The notes beneath the pieces were generated by a model. The model was not told the origin of the DNA. It saw only the letters and a program-made list of their open reading frames with translations, and ran no database searches. The position numbers and the translations under genes were made by a program. From the IMG/VR virus record IMGVR_UViG_3300022602_000110, positions 1 through 57,295 of that record: DNA of 57,295 nt. One strand, 5' to 3'. This document shows positions 5,577-11,314 of this stretch, one piece after another; positions within the stretch are counted from its first letter, which is position 1, and every line of letters starts with the position of its first letter. This DNA is from a virus.

Positions 5577-8426
5577 TTATCTAGCGAATAGGTTCCCGTT
5601 TAGAGCTTTAGTTGCATCTACTGTGTTTTTGGCATGATCTGCGGTATCACGAATATATTTCAACATATCTGCTGTTTGTTTATTTAACGTTTGTAGCTCG
5701 GCAACTAAACTTTTCCCTTGCTCTGCTGTCATATGAGATGTGGTAAGATTTGTAGTTACATTAGTAACTTTTTCTTGAATCGATTTGCTAAAGTTATTAA
5801 CCATATCATCAAAAGATGGTGCTTTTGTATCTTTACCTTTATCAGATTCAGTGCCATTCCAAAGTTGACTTGCTTTGGAACTGATATTTTTGAATATATC
5901 GCTTGCTCCGCTCATTGGATTCATTGCATTTTGCATAGCAGACAAATCCATTGTTCCGGGCATCTGTAATTGATTATTTGGTATGATACTTCCTGCGGTG
6001 TCAGGTTTCATAATTTCCGGACCGTTTTCACCTACCCAATAAGGCTGTCCTGGTTTAACTGGACCACCTTCAGCGCGAGCTTCTAATGCTTTCTTCTTGG
6101 CTTTTGCTTCTTCACCTTGGAAATAGTCTGCTTCATTTTGAATTCTGTCTTCTTCTGCTTTCTTGCCTAGGTTTGATAAAATGCCACCGCCCAATATGTT
6201 GGGCAATACTGCACCTAGTCCCTTGGCCGCAAGTTCAACACCGCGAGCTACACCGTCTTCGATATGATCAACAACGCCCATCTTTTTAAAGTTTTCGTCG
6301 TCTTGTTTTTTGTAGTCTTTGATGTCGACATGAGGAACTGCTGTAGCTTTCTGCAAATCAGCATCTGATCTTTTTTGTTCAAGTTCTTTTTGTTTTGCTT
6401 CTGCGTCTGCTTTAGCTTTCGGATCGTCTTGTAGCGTAGCAACGTTGGCTTTTTTCTTTTCGAGTTCAGCTGTTTTAAGTTTTTCTTCGTCCATCTGACG
6501 TTGAATTGCTATTATCTTATCTTTATCTTTGCCAGCGGCTTCGGCTTGTTTTTGTAAATTTGCAAGATTATTTTTTGATTCTTGAATTTTCTTATCGTAA
6601 TACTCTTTGTCCTGTCCGGCCGCTAGATCTTCAAGTGCTTGTTTCTTCCCAGCATTGGCCATCTCTTCGCGTTTTACTTCAGCAACTGCATCGTAGGCTT
6701 TTTTCTCGGTATCTAATTTATCTTTATCTGCTTTAGCATCACTTTCTGTATACCAAGGAATAATTGCTTTCTTAACCTCGATCAGCATTAACTTTAGATA
6801 GTAGGTTAGGTCGTTAACAATCTTTGCTCTGCCTTCCTCACTGAACATGTTTTGTACAAATTCGCCCATCATTTTAGCCAATTTAGCTATAGCTTCTTTA
6901 ATCGCGGGCATGTTATTTGTTACAAAATCAGTAAAAGATTTTGCCATCTCTTGCATCATTGGAACAACTAAATTGATCACAGGTAGCAATGAAGAATATA
7001 ATAATTCGCCTAATTGTTTAAATGCTTTATCAGTTTCTGCGGCACGGGCGGCTGTACTTTTTTGTTGATCTTCTTGTTCTTTTTTAATGTCATTGATACT
7101 CTTTTGGTAAGCATCCATTGACGTGATACCGGCACGTTCCTTATCTGCCGCGAATCCAATTACACCTGATAAATTCTTTGTTGCATCAGATGCTATGCCA
7201 ATTACACCGGTGTATTGTTTAGATTCTTTTTGTGCATCGAGAATACTCTTACCTAAGTTATCTGTCGCTTCTTTTGAAGTAGCGCCATATTGCTTAACAA
7301 TCTTTGTATGGTTTGCAATGTCGCCTGCTAGTTTTGGCATCATTGCTTGCAGATCTCGACCAGCGTCGGTCATTGGACCAACTCCAAGTTGCGAGCTCTT
7401 GACCATGTCGGCACCTGCTTTACCGTACATGTTGGTCATTTGTGTCAAGCTAGACTCAACAGCTTCTCTATCTTCTTTAGACAGCGTGTTTAAATATGCT
7501 TTCCAGTTTGCTTCTTGTGCTTCTTCTTCAGCAACTTTCTCAGCTTCTTCTCGGCTCTTTCCAGTTATCTGTGTTATTAAATCTAATTCTTTACCGTAGT
7601 CAGCGATTTTCTTGGTAACCAAAGCAGTATTATTCATTTCTTCTTTAGTTAGGCCACCGCGCACTCTAATGTAGCTACCAGTTAAATCATTAATGTCTTT
7701 AAAACTAAATCCCAATGCCAGTAACTGATCACCTAATGGAGATTGTATCAGTGCTTTATTAATTTTAACAAATGCTTCTGCACCTTTATTCACGTTGCCC
7801 GATAGTTGTAAAAATACATCTCTGTTCTTTCCAGCAACTTCTTGAAATTCGTTTAATGTTAGACCTAGTCCTAATGCACTGGATCTAATGTCTGAAAGTG
7901 TCCCGCCAAAGTTTACACCTATCTTTGTTAAATCTTTATAGCTTTCGTATTCTTGTTCTTGTATCTGTACCAGTTTGGCAAACATGTCAAAGACACCGCC
8001 AATGATAGGAATAGCATCAAATGCTTTAACAAAGTCGCTTAGTTTACCTTGACCATCAATAAGTCCTTCACCGAAGTTGGTTAGATTAGAAGCAGTATCT
8101 AATGCACCTTTTACTAAACCACCTAGGACACCGCCAACCATGCCGGCCGCTTTTGTTAAAGGATTTAGCTCTTTAACAACATTCATTGCACCATCGGCAA
8201 CACTTTCAAGTCCTTTTTTAGCATCTTTAGAAGCGTTATTTCCAGCACCGTCCGGTTGTCCAGCTTTGCCCATATTCTTGGACATTGCATCTAACTGTTT
8301 GTTGGTTTGAACAATAAACTGGCCTTGCTTTTGTACAGCGGCCAACAGGGCTTTGAGCGTGGCTTCGGTTGCCGCGTTGTTTAATTCTACTGGTTCACTG
8401 CCAATTGTGCCGGTTACATCTGCCAT
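5577..8426 (-). CDS. Tail tape-measure protein (probable)
   Basis: A 949-residue product with the architecture of a phage tape measure: long helical and coiled-coil stretches (especially residues 590-700, Lys/Glu/Gln/Ala-rich), several hydrophobic segments (around 85-115, 140-155, 485-505, 740-760), and near residues 780-810 the GGPV...PYWVGENGPEIMKP motif seen toward the C-terminus of many tape-measure proteins. It has no clear sequence similarity to T4 gp29 that can be seen by eye. Context agrees: the divergent neighbour is a gp26-like gene with a predicted frameshift partner, as tail assembly chaperones often flank the tape measure. It precedes gp20 in one operon. At roughly 1.5 angstrom per residue it would suit a tail near 140 nm (inference). 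Confidence 0.75.
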   Translation of the reverse strand: MADVTGTIGSEPVELNNAATEATLKALLAAVQKQGQFIVQTNKQLDAMSKNMGKAGQPDGAGNNASKDAKKGLESVADGAMNVVKELNPLTKAAGMVGGVLGGLVKGALDTASNLTNFGEGLIDGQGKLSDFVKAFDAIPIIGGVFDMFAKLVQIQEQEYESYKDLTKIGVNFGGTLSDIRSSALGLGLTLNEFQEVAGKNRDVFLQLSGNVNKGAEAFVKINKALIQSPLGDQLLALGFSFKDINDLTGSYIRVRGGLTKEEMNNTALVTKKIADYGKELDLITQITGKSREEAEKVAEEEAQEANWKAYLNTLSKEDREAVESSLTQMTNMYGKAGADMVKSSQLGVGPMTDAGRDLQAMMPKLAGDIANHTKIVKQYGATSKEATDNLGKSILDAQKESKQYTGVIGIASDATKNLSGVIGFAADKERAGITSMDAYQKSINDIKKEQEDQQKSTAARAAETDKAFKQLGELLYSSLLPVINLVVPMMQEMAKSFTDFVTNNMPAIKEAIAKLAKMMGEFVQNMFSEEGRAKIVNDLTYYLKLMLIEVKKAIIPWYTESDAKADKDKLDTEKKAYDAVAEVKREEMANAGKKQALEDLAAGQDKEYYDKKIQESKNNLANLQKQAEAAGKDKDKIIAIQRQMDEEKLKTAELEKKKANVATLQDDPKAKADAEAKQKELEQKRSDADLQKATAVPHVDIKDYKKQDDENFKKMGVVDHIEDGVARGVELAAKGLGAVLPNILGGGILSNLGKKAEEDRIQNEADYFQGEEAKAKKKALEARAEGGPVKPGQPYWVGENGPEIMKPDTAGSIIPNNQLQMPGTMDLSAMQNAMNPMSGASDIFKNISSKASQLWNGTESDKGKDTKAPSFDDMVNNFSKSIQEKVTNVTTNLTTSHMTAEQGKSLVAELQTLNKQTADMLKYIRDTADHAKNTVDATKALNGNLFAR

Positions 8427-8451: not shown

Positions 8452-8459
8452 CATAAATA
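8452..8459 (+). promoter_or_regulatory. Late-type promoter CATAAATA for the gp26-like gene
   Basis: CATAAATA differs at one position from the T4 late octamer TATAAATA. It would start RNA near 8465, about 35 nt before the ATG at 8500. The same variant occurs before the gp6 gene at 24383, which supports it as a genuine local form recognised by gp55. Confidence 0.55.
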
Positions 8460-8499: not shown

Positions 8500-9372
8500 A
8501 TGGCTGTTCAAACAAATATAAGAGGTGTTAACCCACTAGCAGGATTAATGCGTCAACCTAAGATTTACATTAAATTACCTAGCGGAGGTCAATATTGGCC
8601 GCAAGGAAGTATTGTTATTCCGGAAAACGGTGACCTGCCTGTATATTCAATGACAGCTAAAGATGAGCTATTATTAAAAATCCCCGATGCATTAATGAAC
8701 GGGCAAGCTATAGTAGAGGTTATCCAAAATTGCATACCATCAATTAAAAACGGATGGGCTATTCCCAACATCGACTTAGATGTAATTCTAATTGCCATAC
8801 GTATTGCTACCTACGGTGAAAAGATGAAAGTACCTTTAGACAATAAAAACCTACTTGATGTAGATTACGAAGTTGACCTAAGAAACATCATGGCAGACCT
8901 AGTGGGACAAATCAATTGGGATCCAGTAGTTCCTGTTAATGCTGATTTAACTATTTTTGTAAAACCCATTACCTACAAGTTGATCACCGACGGTGCTATG
9001 CAAAGTTTTGAAACACAGAAGATTATTCAAATTGCCAATAACTCAGACCTTGAAGAAAAAGAAAAAGTTAAAATGTTTAAAGAGTCTTTTGACAAATTAA
9101 ACTTGTTAAGTATTGGCATCGTTAACAATTCTGTTTACGAAATTCAATCTAGTCAAGGTAGTACAAAAGATCCTGCGTACATTAAAGAGTTTATGGAAAA
9201 CGTAGATAAAGGTGTGTTTGATGCTGTTAAAGCTCATTTGGAAAAAATGAAAGATCAAAACACAATCAAACCGTTACAAATACAACCTACTGCCGCTATG
9301 TTGGCCGCAGGCTACGCAGACGAGATTATTGAAGTTCCACTGGTATTCGATGCATCAACTTTTTTCGTCTAA
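8500..9372 (+). CDS. gp26: gp26-like baseplate/tail assembly protein
   Basis: A 290-residue protein with the T4 base-plate protein (gp26-type) signature: IKLPSGGQYWPQGSI near residue 27, DLPVYSMTAKDELLLKIPDA near 46, and the run IPNIDLDVILIAIRIATYGE near 90. T4 gp26 is 208 aa, so this one has a C-terminal extension. In T4 this protein is assigned to baseplate hub assembly. Here it lies divergent from the tape-measure gene and just upstream of a short gene in the -1 frame; the last codons (ACT TTT TTC GTC TAA) carry a slippery heptamer, so a fraction of product may be a 365-residue fusion. That arrangement resembles lambda G/GT tail chaperones (inference). Confidence 0.85.
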   Translation: MAVQTNIRGVNPLAGLMRQPKIYIKLPSGGQYWPQGSIVIPENGDLPVYSMTAKDELLLKIPDALMNGQAIVEVIQNCIPSIKNGWAIPNIDLDVILIAIRIATYGEKMKVPLDNKNLLDVDYEVDLRNIMADLVGQINWDPVVPVNADLTIFVKPITYKLITDGAMQSFETQKIIQIANNSDLEEKEKVKMFKESFDKLNLLSIGIVNNSVYEIQSSQGSTKDPAYIKEFMENVDKGVFDAVKAHLEKMKDQNTIKPLQIQPTAAMLAAGYADEIIEVPLVFDASTFFV

Positions 9373-9399
9373 GGCTTTTGTCCCTCAACATGGACGAAA
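9360..9399 (+). other. Predicted -1 programmed ribosomal frameshift site
   Basis: The heptamer T TTT TTC (9360-9366) is in the correct phase for -1 slippage in the gp26-like gene, three codons before its stop. Nine nucleotides downstream is an 8-bp stem (TTTTGTCC at 9376-9383 with GGACGAAA at 9392-9399, one G-T wobble, 8-nt loop). After slippage reading runs CGT CTA AGG CTT TTG into the downstream frame with no stop, giving 289 + 76 = 365 residues. The site, spacer and stem fit the standard -1 model; whether it is used is inferred. Confidence 0.65.
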
Positions 9400-9596
9400 T
9401 TGATAAACTAGCAACGTCCATGGAATTAGAAACAAAGGCCGTTAAAAACGAGCTCTTTAGATTATGCTGGTACATGCGTGGTGGCATGACTATAACAGAA
9501 GCATATAACCTAGCGCCCGATGATCGAGAAATTATTGGAAAGATTATCGAAGATAATCTAGAGACAACTAAAAAATCCGGTATACCGTTCTTTTAA
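9390..9596 (+). CDS. Small protein downstream of gp26, likely expressed as a frameshift extension
   Basis: From ATG 9390 it encodes 68 residues; a TTG at 9378 is an alternative start. It contains WYMRGGMTITEAYNLAPDDR and ends with a IIGKIIEDNLETTKKSGIPF segment, a pattern found in short proteins after gene 26 in other T4-like phages. The ribosome-site candidate AAGG (9371-9374) is 15 nt from the ATG and only 3 nt from the TTG, so independent initiation looks weak. The frame is open back to the slippery heptamer at 9360, which suggests its main product is the C-terminus of a gp26 fusion. The role as a T-like tail chaperone is inferred. It converges on and overlaps by 4 nt the gene at 9593. Confidence 0.7.
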   Translation: MDEIDKLATSMELETKAVKNELFRLCWYMRGGMTITEAYNLAPDDREIIGKIIEDNLETTKKSGIPFF

Positions 9597-10405
9597 AGAC
9601 TCATTCCTAAAAACTTACTGTGGAATCCTAAGCTCTCAGGAGTTGCCATTGCTTTGCTAGCCGCTCTGGCCGCACGTTTACGCATAGCATTAGGTGTTTG
9701 ACTTACCTGCCCAGCAACTTTACCGCCAGTACGTTTTGGAGCCGGGGCAGGTGCTTGATTGCTTGCGCTCACTGGACTATTTTGAGTAGCTGGAGCTTGC
9801 TGTCCGCTTAGATTTTGAGCCATTTGACCAAATGCACCGGCGCCAGCATCAGCAGGAGCTTGAGCTTGTTGTGCAGGAGCTTTTGGTGAAAGCATCTTTG
9901 TTAATCCATCTAATTCTTTTTGGATTGCTTTCATTTGTTTTTGTTTAGCTGATATCTGAGCTTTGATACTTTGAGGAGTAGGTTGAGCGCCGCCTTGTTG
10001 TGCTGGAGCAGATTGTGCAGGAGCACCTCCACTCATTGCATTACTGAATCCTTGTTTAAATGCACCACCTGCTGTTTGAGCCGGAGCAGATTGTGCAGGA
10101 GCACCACCACCTGATCCGCCTGAGCTTCCACCTTGTAGTCCTTGAGCAAAACTACCACCTGCTGTTTGAGCCGGAGCAGATTGTGCAGGAGCATTGCCAT
10201 CAGGACCTCCAGCAATAGTATCAGCGGCTCTGTTGTAGCCTTTTCCAATTGCTCGAACAAACCCTGCTGGAACACCTGCTACAGCACCTACTGCTTGTCC
10301 TACACCTCCGATTCCTTTACCTACAGCTGAACCAGCACTTTTAACTTTATCCCATATAGGACCTTCTTGCAATTCAGATTCTACGATAACTTCAGTAATT
10401 CTCAT
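9593..10405 (-). CDS. Repeat-rich low-complexity protein, probable virion or tail-associated
   Basis: A 270-residue protein not recognised as a named family. The N-terminus (MRITEVIVESELQEGPIWDK) is compact; residues 20-65 are Gly/Ala/Val-rich and perhaps amphipathic. Residues 70-140 hold three APAQSAPAQ-type units, followed by a short coiled coil (about 145-170, KAQISAKQKQMKAIQKELDG) and a Pro/Ala/Gln-rich, then Arg/Lys-rich tail ending FHSKFLGMSL. It has its own perfect late promoter 29 nt upstream and a GAGG ribosome site, so it is a late gene, which favours a structural or assembly role (inference). It could also be a core or injected protein. Confidence 0.7.
   Translation of the reverse strand: MRITEVIVESELQEGPIWDKVKSAGSAVGKGIGGVGQAVGAVAGVPAGFVRAIGKGYNRAADTIAGGPDGNAPAQSAPAQTAGGSFAQGLQGGSSGGSGGGAPAQSAPAQTAGGAFKQGFSNAMSGGAPAQSAPAQQGGAQPTPQSIKAQISAKQKQMKAIQKELDGLTKMLSPKAPAQQAQAPADAGAGAFGQMAQNLSGQQAPATQNSPVSASNQAPAPAPKRTGGKVAGQVSQTPNAMRKRAARAASKAMATPESLGFHSKFLGMSL
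10005..10193. repeat. Direct repeats inside the low-complexity gene
   Basis: Two identical 40-bp copies lie at 10064-10103 and 10154-10193 (start of each ACCACCTGCTGTTTGAGCCG), 90 bp apart. A third, 21-bp partial copy (start GGAGCAGATTGTGCAGGAGC) lies at 10005-10025. They encode the APAQSAPAQTAGG units on the minus strand. Exact DNA identity, not just protein repetition, suggests recent duplication or slippage. Confidence 0.85.
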
Positions 10406-10885: not shown

Positions 10886-11314
10886 CTAAATTTTAGATTT
10901 TATGTGAGAGCCATGGACACGGACTTGGATATGTCCGTTATAATAATTGTCTGATTCTAATACTTTGCGGTCGAATTGTTCGCGGGCCTCAATGTACGAT
11001 GTTTCTGCTTTACTTTTACAATAGTAGAGAATTTCTCGTGTGAATTTGTCTTTGCCTAGTGTGTCTATATCTGCTGTTAGATTTGGACTTGAGCCATAAT
11101 ATTCTTGCCAGTCGGAGTCAATCTTACTCCTAATCTTCTTTTTCTTCTTTGTGCCGTTCTTTAACTTTACAGTCTTGTAGGTCGTTTTACTAAATTTTGC
11201 TAATTTTTTGCCAATATACATCCTACCCGAGACTGTATTTGTAATTAGATATACAAATCCAACACAGTCTTCGGGGAGTTCTTCAACTAAATTGCCTTGA
11301 TAAGTCCAAGTCAT
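10886..11314 (-). CDS. GIY-YIG domain protein (possible homing endonuclease or phage nuclease)
   Basis: A 142-residue protein with the GIY-YIG nuclease signature in its first 40 residues: VGFVYLITNTVSGRMYIGKK, where VYLI (21-24) and YIG (33-35) are the two strands. A Lys-rich insertion follows (about 45-62), then SDWQEYYGSS and a C-terminal region with a conserved Glu (SYIEAREQFDRKVL). This form is common as a free-standing gene in environmental T4-like phages. It starts in an ATGA overlap with the preceding 51-aa gene, so it is read as part of the gp46 operon rather than as an intron ORF. The structured region directly downstream raises the possibility of a nuclease-RNA pair (inference). Target and activity are unknown. 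Confidence 0.8.
   Translation of the reverse strand: MTWTYQGNLVEELPEDCVGFVYLITNTVSGRMYIGKKLAKFSKTTYKTVKLKNGTKKKKKIRSKIDSDWQEYYGSSPNLTADIDTLGKDKFTREILYYCKSKAETSYIEAREQFDRKVLESDNYYNGHIQVRVHGSHIKSKI

Follow-up and report, generated by a model that had tools for sequence, protein, structure and literature searches.

Frameshifted tail assembly chaperones have been called a general feature of long-tailed phages, "except T4" (PMC5009743). In phage lambda, a short protein, gpG, and a −1 extended form, gpGT, are made from a locus that adjoins the tape-measure gene, and the first frame has the slippery heptamer at its 3′ end (PMC5009743). T4 itself has two separate genes and no frameshift: gp26 and gp51 both belong to the Pfam family PF12322, and gp51 consists of a gp26-like part with an in-frame C-terminal extension that appears homologous, by way of cyanophage sequences, to the extension described below. 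A paper by Vladimirov, Gautam and Davidson (Virology 2022), cited in PMC10885494 and PMC12846349, identified the tail assembly chaperones that T4-like phages use, and the view of T4-type gp26 as a chaperone is, as far as those citations convey the 2022 work, already published. Poly-T frameshift signals in T4-like phages are also on record in PMC12846349, where the TAC-N/TAC-NC pair of the Vandenendeviridae (phage Adele) is reported to have a conserved poly-T −1 signal and an open −1 extension. The Adele locus differs from ours in its GTTTTT motif and in having the chaperone directly upstream of the tape measure, and the passages cited describe no covarying stem there. Cyanophage-type loci with gp26 and a short "gp51" (e.g. 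Sf-FS3) resemble our locus in that TTTTTTC is set three bases ahead of the stop and the −1 extension is open. They differ in that the extension has 61 to 66 codons, the stop is often followed by an ATG, and an upstream GGAGGG and a hairpin with a 9-nt loop accompany the heptamer.

Here we describe a locus from a T4-related phage that very probably, judging from its sequence and that of its relatives, makes two versions of a tail chaperone from one gene by −1 slippage. The locus lies in a 57,295-base virus record, a partial genome that was taken over its whole length and is called the window below. The features at the junction are as follows.

8500–9372, plus strand: gp26-like gene of 290 aa, stop TAA at 9370–9372; putative short tail assembly chaperone (G-like)
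9360–9366, plus strand: slippery heptamer T TTT TTC, conserved across the clade, the jumbo phages and the cyanophage-type loci
9367–9372, plus strand: 6-nt spacer GTCTAA, which contains the zero-frame stop; its length is constant in the clade
9366–9596, plus strand: −1 frame extension (putative T-like domain), 76 codons at 9366–9593 and stop at 9594–9596

The zero-frame 3′ end of the gp26-like gene reads ACT TTT TTC GTC TAA, with the heptamer in phase for tandem slippage. No stop interrupts the −1 frame between the heptamer and 9593, so that the predicted fusion has 365 residues. The earlier note had pointed to an in-phase T TTT TTC at this 3′ end, to a −1 frame open through the small downstream gene and to the lack of a well-placed ribosome site for that gene. 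All of these are seen in the window, where none of the start codons in the small frame has a Shine-Dalgarno sequence ahead of it. The in-phase TTTTTTC is the single occurrence in about 19,900 codons scanned (ORFs of at least 100 codons). As compared with lambda, the N-terminal part belongs to the T4 gp26 family and is about twice as long, the heptamer is U UUU UUC, a stem with a 48-nt loop is conserved, and the gene is divergent from the tape measure, whereas that of lambda lies upstream of it in one operon. As compared with T4, one gene with a frameshift takes the place of two genes.

A protein search of viral contigs yielded 80 loci; identical junctions were merged and a few later hits were added. 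In all 58 distinct intact sequences of the clade, the window included, whose gp26-like proteins are 38–64% identical, exactly 3 nt separate TTTTTTC from the stop, and the −1 frame stays open for 75 to 77 codons. One locus, L040, was not scored because of an early in-frame stop inside gp26, due either to misassembly or to a break in this copy of the gene. The heptamer and the open −1 frame were also present in ten of ten isolated jumbo phages (Phosso, RaK2, Atu_ph07, XaC1, PA5oct, BF, 121Q, Vibrio 2.275.O, SCTP-2 and GAP32), in which gp26 is 22–29% identical and the stop follows 3 to 33 nt behind the heptamer, in five further phages (XbC2, Kaldavass, PHA46, Hallingskeid and CBB), and in 60 of 61 cyanophage-type loci. 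The exact heptamer is missing from XacN1 (which has T7), LR756508 and Cygsa01. A DNA-level search for phage relatives of the window gave no match, and a Vibrio relative, used as a query in a protein scan, gave no new loci. The earlier note had made its proposal depend on retention of the heptamer and the −1 phase in relatives, and on homologues having no strong independent ribosome site; the former is borne out in the clade and in the ten jumbo phages, and the clade has no such site. Thus, the core claim, a lambda G/GT-type −1 frameshift that joins gp26 to the next frame, passes these comparative tests, which are tests of sequence. The conservation of the junction also refutes the idea that the T6 run is a miscounted homopolymer or that the two frames are one decayed gene. 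Homopolymers are indeed error-prone, but independent assemblies, isolated phages among them, show the same six T residues and the same two frames at over 120 distinct junctions, and we regard the chance of such an artefact as negligible.

The constraint on the junction was analysed at the codon level in 115 conserved amino-acid columns of the fusion from 47 non-redundant sequences. The TTT and TTC of the heptamer are the sole columns with fully invariant codons, even though TTC accounts for only a quarter of the Phe codons. AGG and CTT, in the 5′ arm of the stem described below, and a GCC Ala codon, in its 3′ arm, are among the columns that come next in codon constancy. The extension has a median dN/dS of 0.35 in the −1 frame, similar to that of the end of gp26 (0.33), as compared with 0.91 and 1.54 in the other two frames, which contain an average of 6 to 7 stops; purifying selection is thus seen in −1 alone. 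These results bear on one alternative, namely that the downstream frame is an independent small gene with its own start, coupled to the gp26 stop, and that the heptamer is incidental. Annotators of RaK2-like phages and cyanophages do call the frame separately, ATGA overlaps occur in some clade members, and in most cyanophage-type loci the stop is directly followed by an ATG in frame. However, no ATG is found within the first 20 codons of the extension in 25 of the 47 clade members, and in 5 of the 47 there is no ATG, GTG or TTG; AAGG precedes a candidate start in only three, with no stronger Shine-Dalgarno sequence in any. Furthermore, conservation starts at the first codon past the heptamer (FFR..LL), and incidental heptamers would not show codon invariance. 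Because starts and Shine-Dalgarno sequences are mostly missing, the extension is, by this reading of the sequences, not an independent gene in most members of the clade, and we consider the alternative very improbable.

As a stimulator of slippage, we required an RNA structure 5 to 9 nt downstream of the heptamer that is supported by covariation. A 10-bp stem at a spacing of 6 nt, constant within the clade, was found.

9373–9382, plus strand: 5′ arm of the conserved stem; 98% of cells paired, 9373–9381 pairing in the window
9431–9440, plus strand: 3′ arm of the conserved stem; covariation, 9432–9440 pairing in the window

The two arms enclose a loop of 48 nt. Double changes occur at 6 of the 10 pairs, the two-sided changes including GC to CG, GC to AU, UA to CG and AU to CG, and none of 500 shuffles reached the covariation score. 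The pairing of these two arms was ranked first by a wide margin in an unbiased helix scan, and RNAalifold applied to 44 sequences returned one helix at −11.45 kcal/mol, as compared with approximately 0 for column shuffles. Single-sequence folding gave a mean z of −3.26 downstream of the heptamer versus −0.08 in a control stretch; the window itself folds at −24.2 kcal/mol (z = −4.12), with an extra inner helix that the conservation scan did not recover. Phosso and Atu_ph07 carry the same stem. No pseudoknot or second helix was detected in a scan from −120 to +226, and a Shine-Dalgarno sequence upstream of the heptamer was found in 0 of 47 clade members.

The earlier note had proposed a different stimulator, an 8-bp hairpin in which TTTTGTCC at 9376–9383 pairs with GGACGAAA at 9392–9399, including one U·G pair. 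Although this hairpin can be drawn in the window, it is unconserved: 66% of its cells are paired in 44 relatives as compared with 65% in shuffles. We therefore rejected it; the stem at 9373–9382/9431–9440 is the one that is conserved.

In cyanophage-type loci (L093 and L101–L180), the stimulator appears to be different from that of the window's clade, because the heptamer is flanked by GGAGGG, nine bases upstream in 17 of 20 loci, and by a short downstream hairpin at the same spacing, 83.5% paired, with covariation mainly at one pair. The upstream GGAGGG resembles the Shine-Dalgarno stimulator of E. coli dnaX. A further set of loci from enterobacterial and Xanthomonas jumbo phages (L082, L084, L086, L087, L090 and L181–L185) has the heptamer, but the long stem was not found there, and RNAalifold gave no structure for the enterobacterial jumbo phages. 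GCTTCT recurs 7 nt downstream of the heptamer in these loci, where AGAAG about 13 to 20 nt later might pair with it.

One could also envision that the shift is transcriptional, with RNA polymerase rather than the ribosome slipping on the T6 run. Such a run can in principle slip, but it is short for slippage of this kind, and the invariant terminal C and the exact codon phase are what ribosomal slippage needs. The covarying stem at a standard spacing in the clade, and GGAGGG with a hairpin in the cyanophage-type loci, likewise argue against this possibility, which seems to us improbable, if a shade less so than the independent gene. The frameshift is very likely real and functional, insofar as sequence comparison can tell.

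The gp26-like protein matches PF12322 (T4_baseplate) with E = 1.4e-7 and 31.9 bits, above the curated cut-off of 24.5, and PHROG 150 (baseplate hub) with E = 2.8e-9. A PF12322 match was obtained for 34 of 38 clade members, and the window record, a partial genome, holds one PF12322 gene. A search of BFVD with an AlphaFold model of the gp26-like protein (pLDDT 84) gave matches to T4-like baseplate hub assembly proteins (E = 1.8e-20). The extension is predicted to be a small all-helical domain. In profile comparisons, the window extension matches the jumbo-phage extensions (E = 1.3e-21), the match of the cyanophage fusion to T4 gp51 extends almost end to end and takes in the C-terminus (E = 6.8e-11), and the jumbo fusion matches T4 gp51 with E = 7.8e-4. 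Compared directly, the profiles of the window fusion and T4 gp51 gave no significant match, and the link runs via the jumbo and cyanophage sequences. Fold and sequence searches of the PDB returned nothing significant, and a fold search with the extension returned weak matches only, e.g. a Moogle "tape measure chaperone" (E = 3.8) and an Acinetobacter gp51 (E = 5.6), to which we give no weight. Since the extension matches the C-terminal extension of T4 gp51 through these intermediates, gp26 and the fusion would correspond, at the level of homology, to the short and long tail assembly chaperones. The profile links through cyanophage and jumbo sequences also suggest that T4 gp51 is best read as a genetically fused long form, with gp26 as the short form. 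The same gp26 fold was matched in BFVD, with E values from 1e-5 to 3e-7, by A0A191ZCG4, A0A0K2QR08 and A0A1L7N169 of phages Special G, RSF1 and RP12; these are uncharacterized jumbo-phage proteins of 500 to 550 aa that may be unrecognized tail chaperones.

The gp26-like gene is preceded by the following features.

5577–8426, minus strand: divergent tape-measure gene of 949 aa, matching PHROG tail length tape measure families (E about 1e-6)
8452–8459, plus strand: T4 late-promoter-like motif CATAAATA upstream of gp26, by consensus match only

The tape measure had been placed by the earlier note on the other, divergent side of the locus, and this arrangement holds beyond the window: a long divergent ORF lies next to the gp26-like gene in all 45 clade sequences with enough upstream DNA, the window included. 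Homologues of the tape-measure protein in relatives are annotated or detected as tape measure or structural protein. The back-to-back order recurs in most jumbo phages that were examined; Atu_ph07 and the Vibrio phage depart from it. TATAAATA or CATAAATA was found upstream of gp26 in 26 of 47 clade members, and the others often have GATAAATA. A TANATAAATA-like motif is conserved before gp26, in the intergenic space common to it and the divergent tape measure. Two minus-strand ORFs downstream were also observed. One, at 9593–10405, encodes a 270-aa Ala/Gln/Pro-rich repetitive protein (AQSAPAQTAGG repeats) with no Pfam or PHROG match and converges on the stop of the extension with a 4-base overlap. 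The other, at 10886–11314, encodes 142 aa with a VYLITN..GRMYIGKK stretch, looks like a GIY-YIG nuclease, and lies near the position of endonuclease VII or RusA-type resolvases in related jumbo phages.

The database names T4_baseplate and baseplate hub, together with genetic work cited in PMC3004832 that puts gp26 in the T4 hub, raise the question of whether gp26 is a true part of the baseplate hub, the frameshift then producing a second structural isoform. The review itself (PMC3004832) tables gp26 and gp51 as hub assembly chaperones, and T4 gp51, to which homology was found through intermediates, is a non-virion protein. In mass spectrometry of purified CBB virions, the tape-measure protein CBB_251 was detected with 29 peptides at 50% coverage, whereas CBB_250 and CBB_249 are missing from the virion protein table, an absence from one proteome (PMC5259590). 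The CBB record labels CBB_250 a structural protein. The PA5oct record carries a mass spectrometry note on neighbouring proteins and none on the gp26-like protein. Because CBB_251 was detected and CBB_250 and CBB_249 were not, the CBB table favours a chaperone over a baseplate component, as weak evidence. We think that a structural role is unlikely, although less so than the other alternatives considered here, and that the chaperone reading is very likely right. The earlier note's recasting of gp26 as a chaperone thus stands, on the basis of homology to T4 gp26/gp51, adjacency to the tape measure and absence from the virion table, but it is not new.

Our explanation of the locus as a whole, to which we assign a probability of about 0.88, is a pair of short and long chaperones produced by stem-stimulated slippage, with roles like those in lambda. 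Most ribosomes would terminate at the TAA at 9370 and release the 290-residue gp26-like short chaperone. In a minority, with Phe-tRNAs in the P and A sites on UUU UUC, the 10-bp stem that lies six bases further on would hold the ribosome, which would move back to UUU UUU and translate another 76 codons, yielding a long form of 365 residues. If the analogy with lambda gpG/gpGT holds, the common N-terminal part might coat the product of the divergent tape-measure gene, tail-tube subunits might be recruited by the helical C-terminal part, and both forms would leave before the virion is completed. Comparison supports the slippery site, the coding −1 frame, the covarying stem and the homology to T4 gp26/gp51; we infer the occurrence and efficiency of slippage and the binding partners, and for the way in which the two forms would share the work we follow lambda (PMC5009743).

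What is added here is the lineage, the covarying stimulator, the variation in stimulators while the heptamer stays fixed, and the divergent orientation of the genes. A literature search for jumbo phages with a frameshifted chaperone found no paper, and subscription journals are thinly covered by it; within the same search, no prior description of this lineage, the covarying stem or the divergent arrangement was found. For the annotation of such genomes, a simple rule can be given for this clade and the cyanophages: gp26 ends in TTTTTTC followed by exactly three bases and the stop. The compact covarying stimulator is also available to frameshift research.

A whole T4-related lineage would appear, on strong comparative evidence, to carry the frameshift; it includes well-studied jumbo phages whose annotation stops at a baseplate hub protein and a hypothetical protein, or lists nothing. 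One hypothesis, toward which we lean slightly, is that the U6C frameshift is ancestral for the chaperone pair of the T4 superfamily. The heptamer would have remained unchanged while its stimulators were swapped, with the long-range 10-bp stem here and an upstream Shine-Dalgarno sequence with a short hairpin in the cyanophages, and T4 would have gone over to two genes. In the present lineage, with the chaperone divergent to the tape measure, the ratio of the two might be set across two transcripts. The origin of T4 genes 26 and 51 thereby becomes a testable question.
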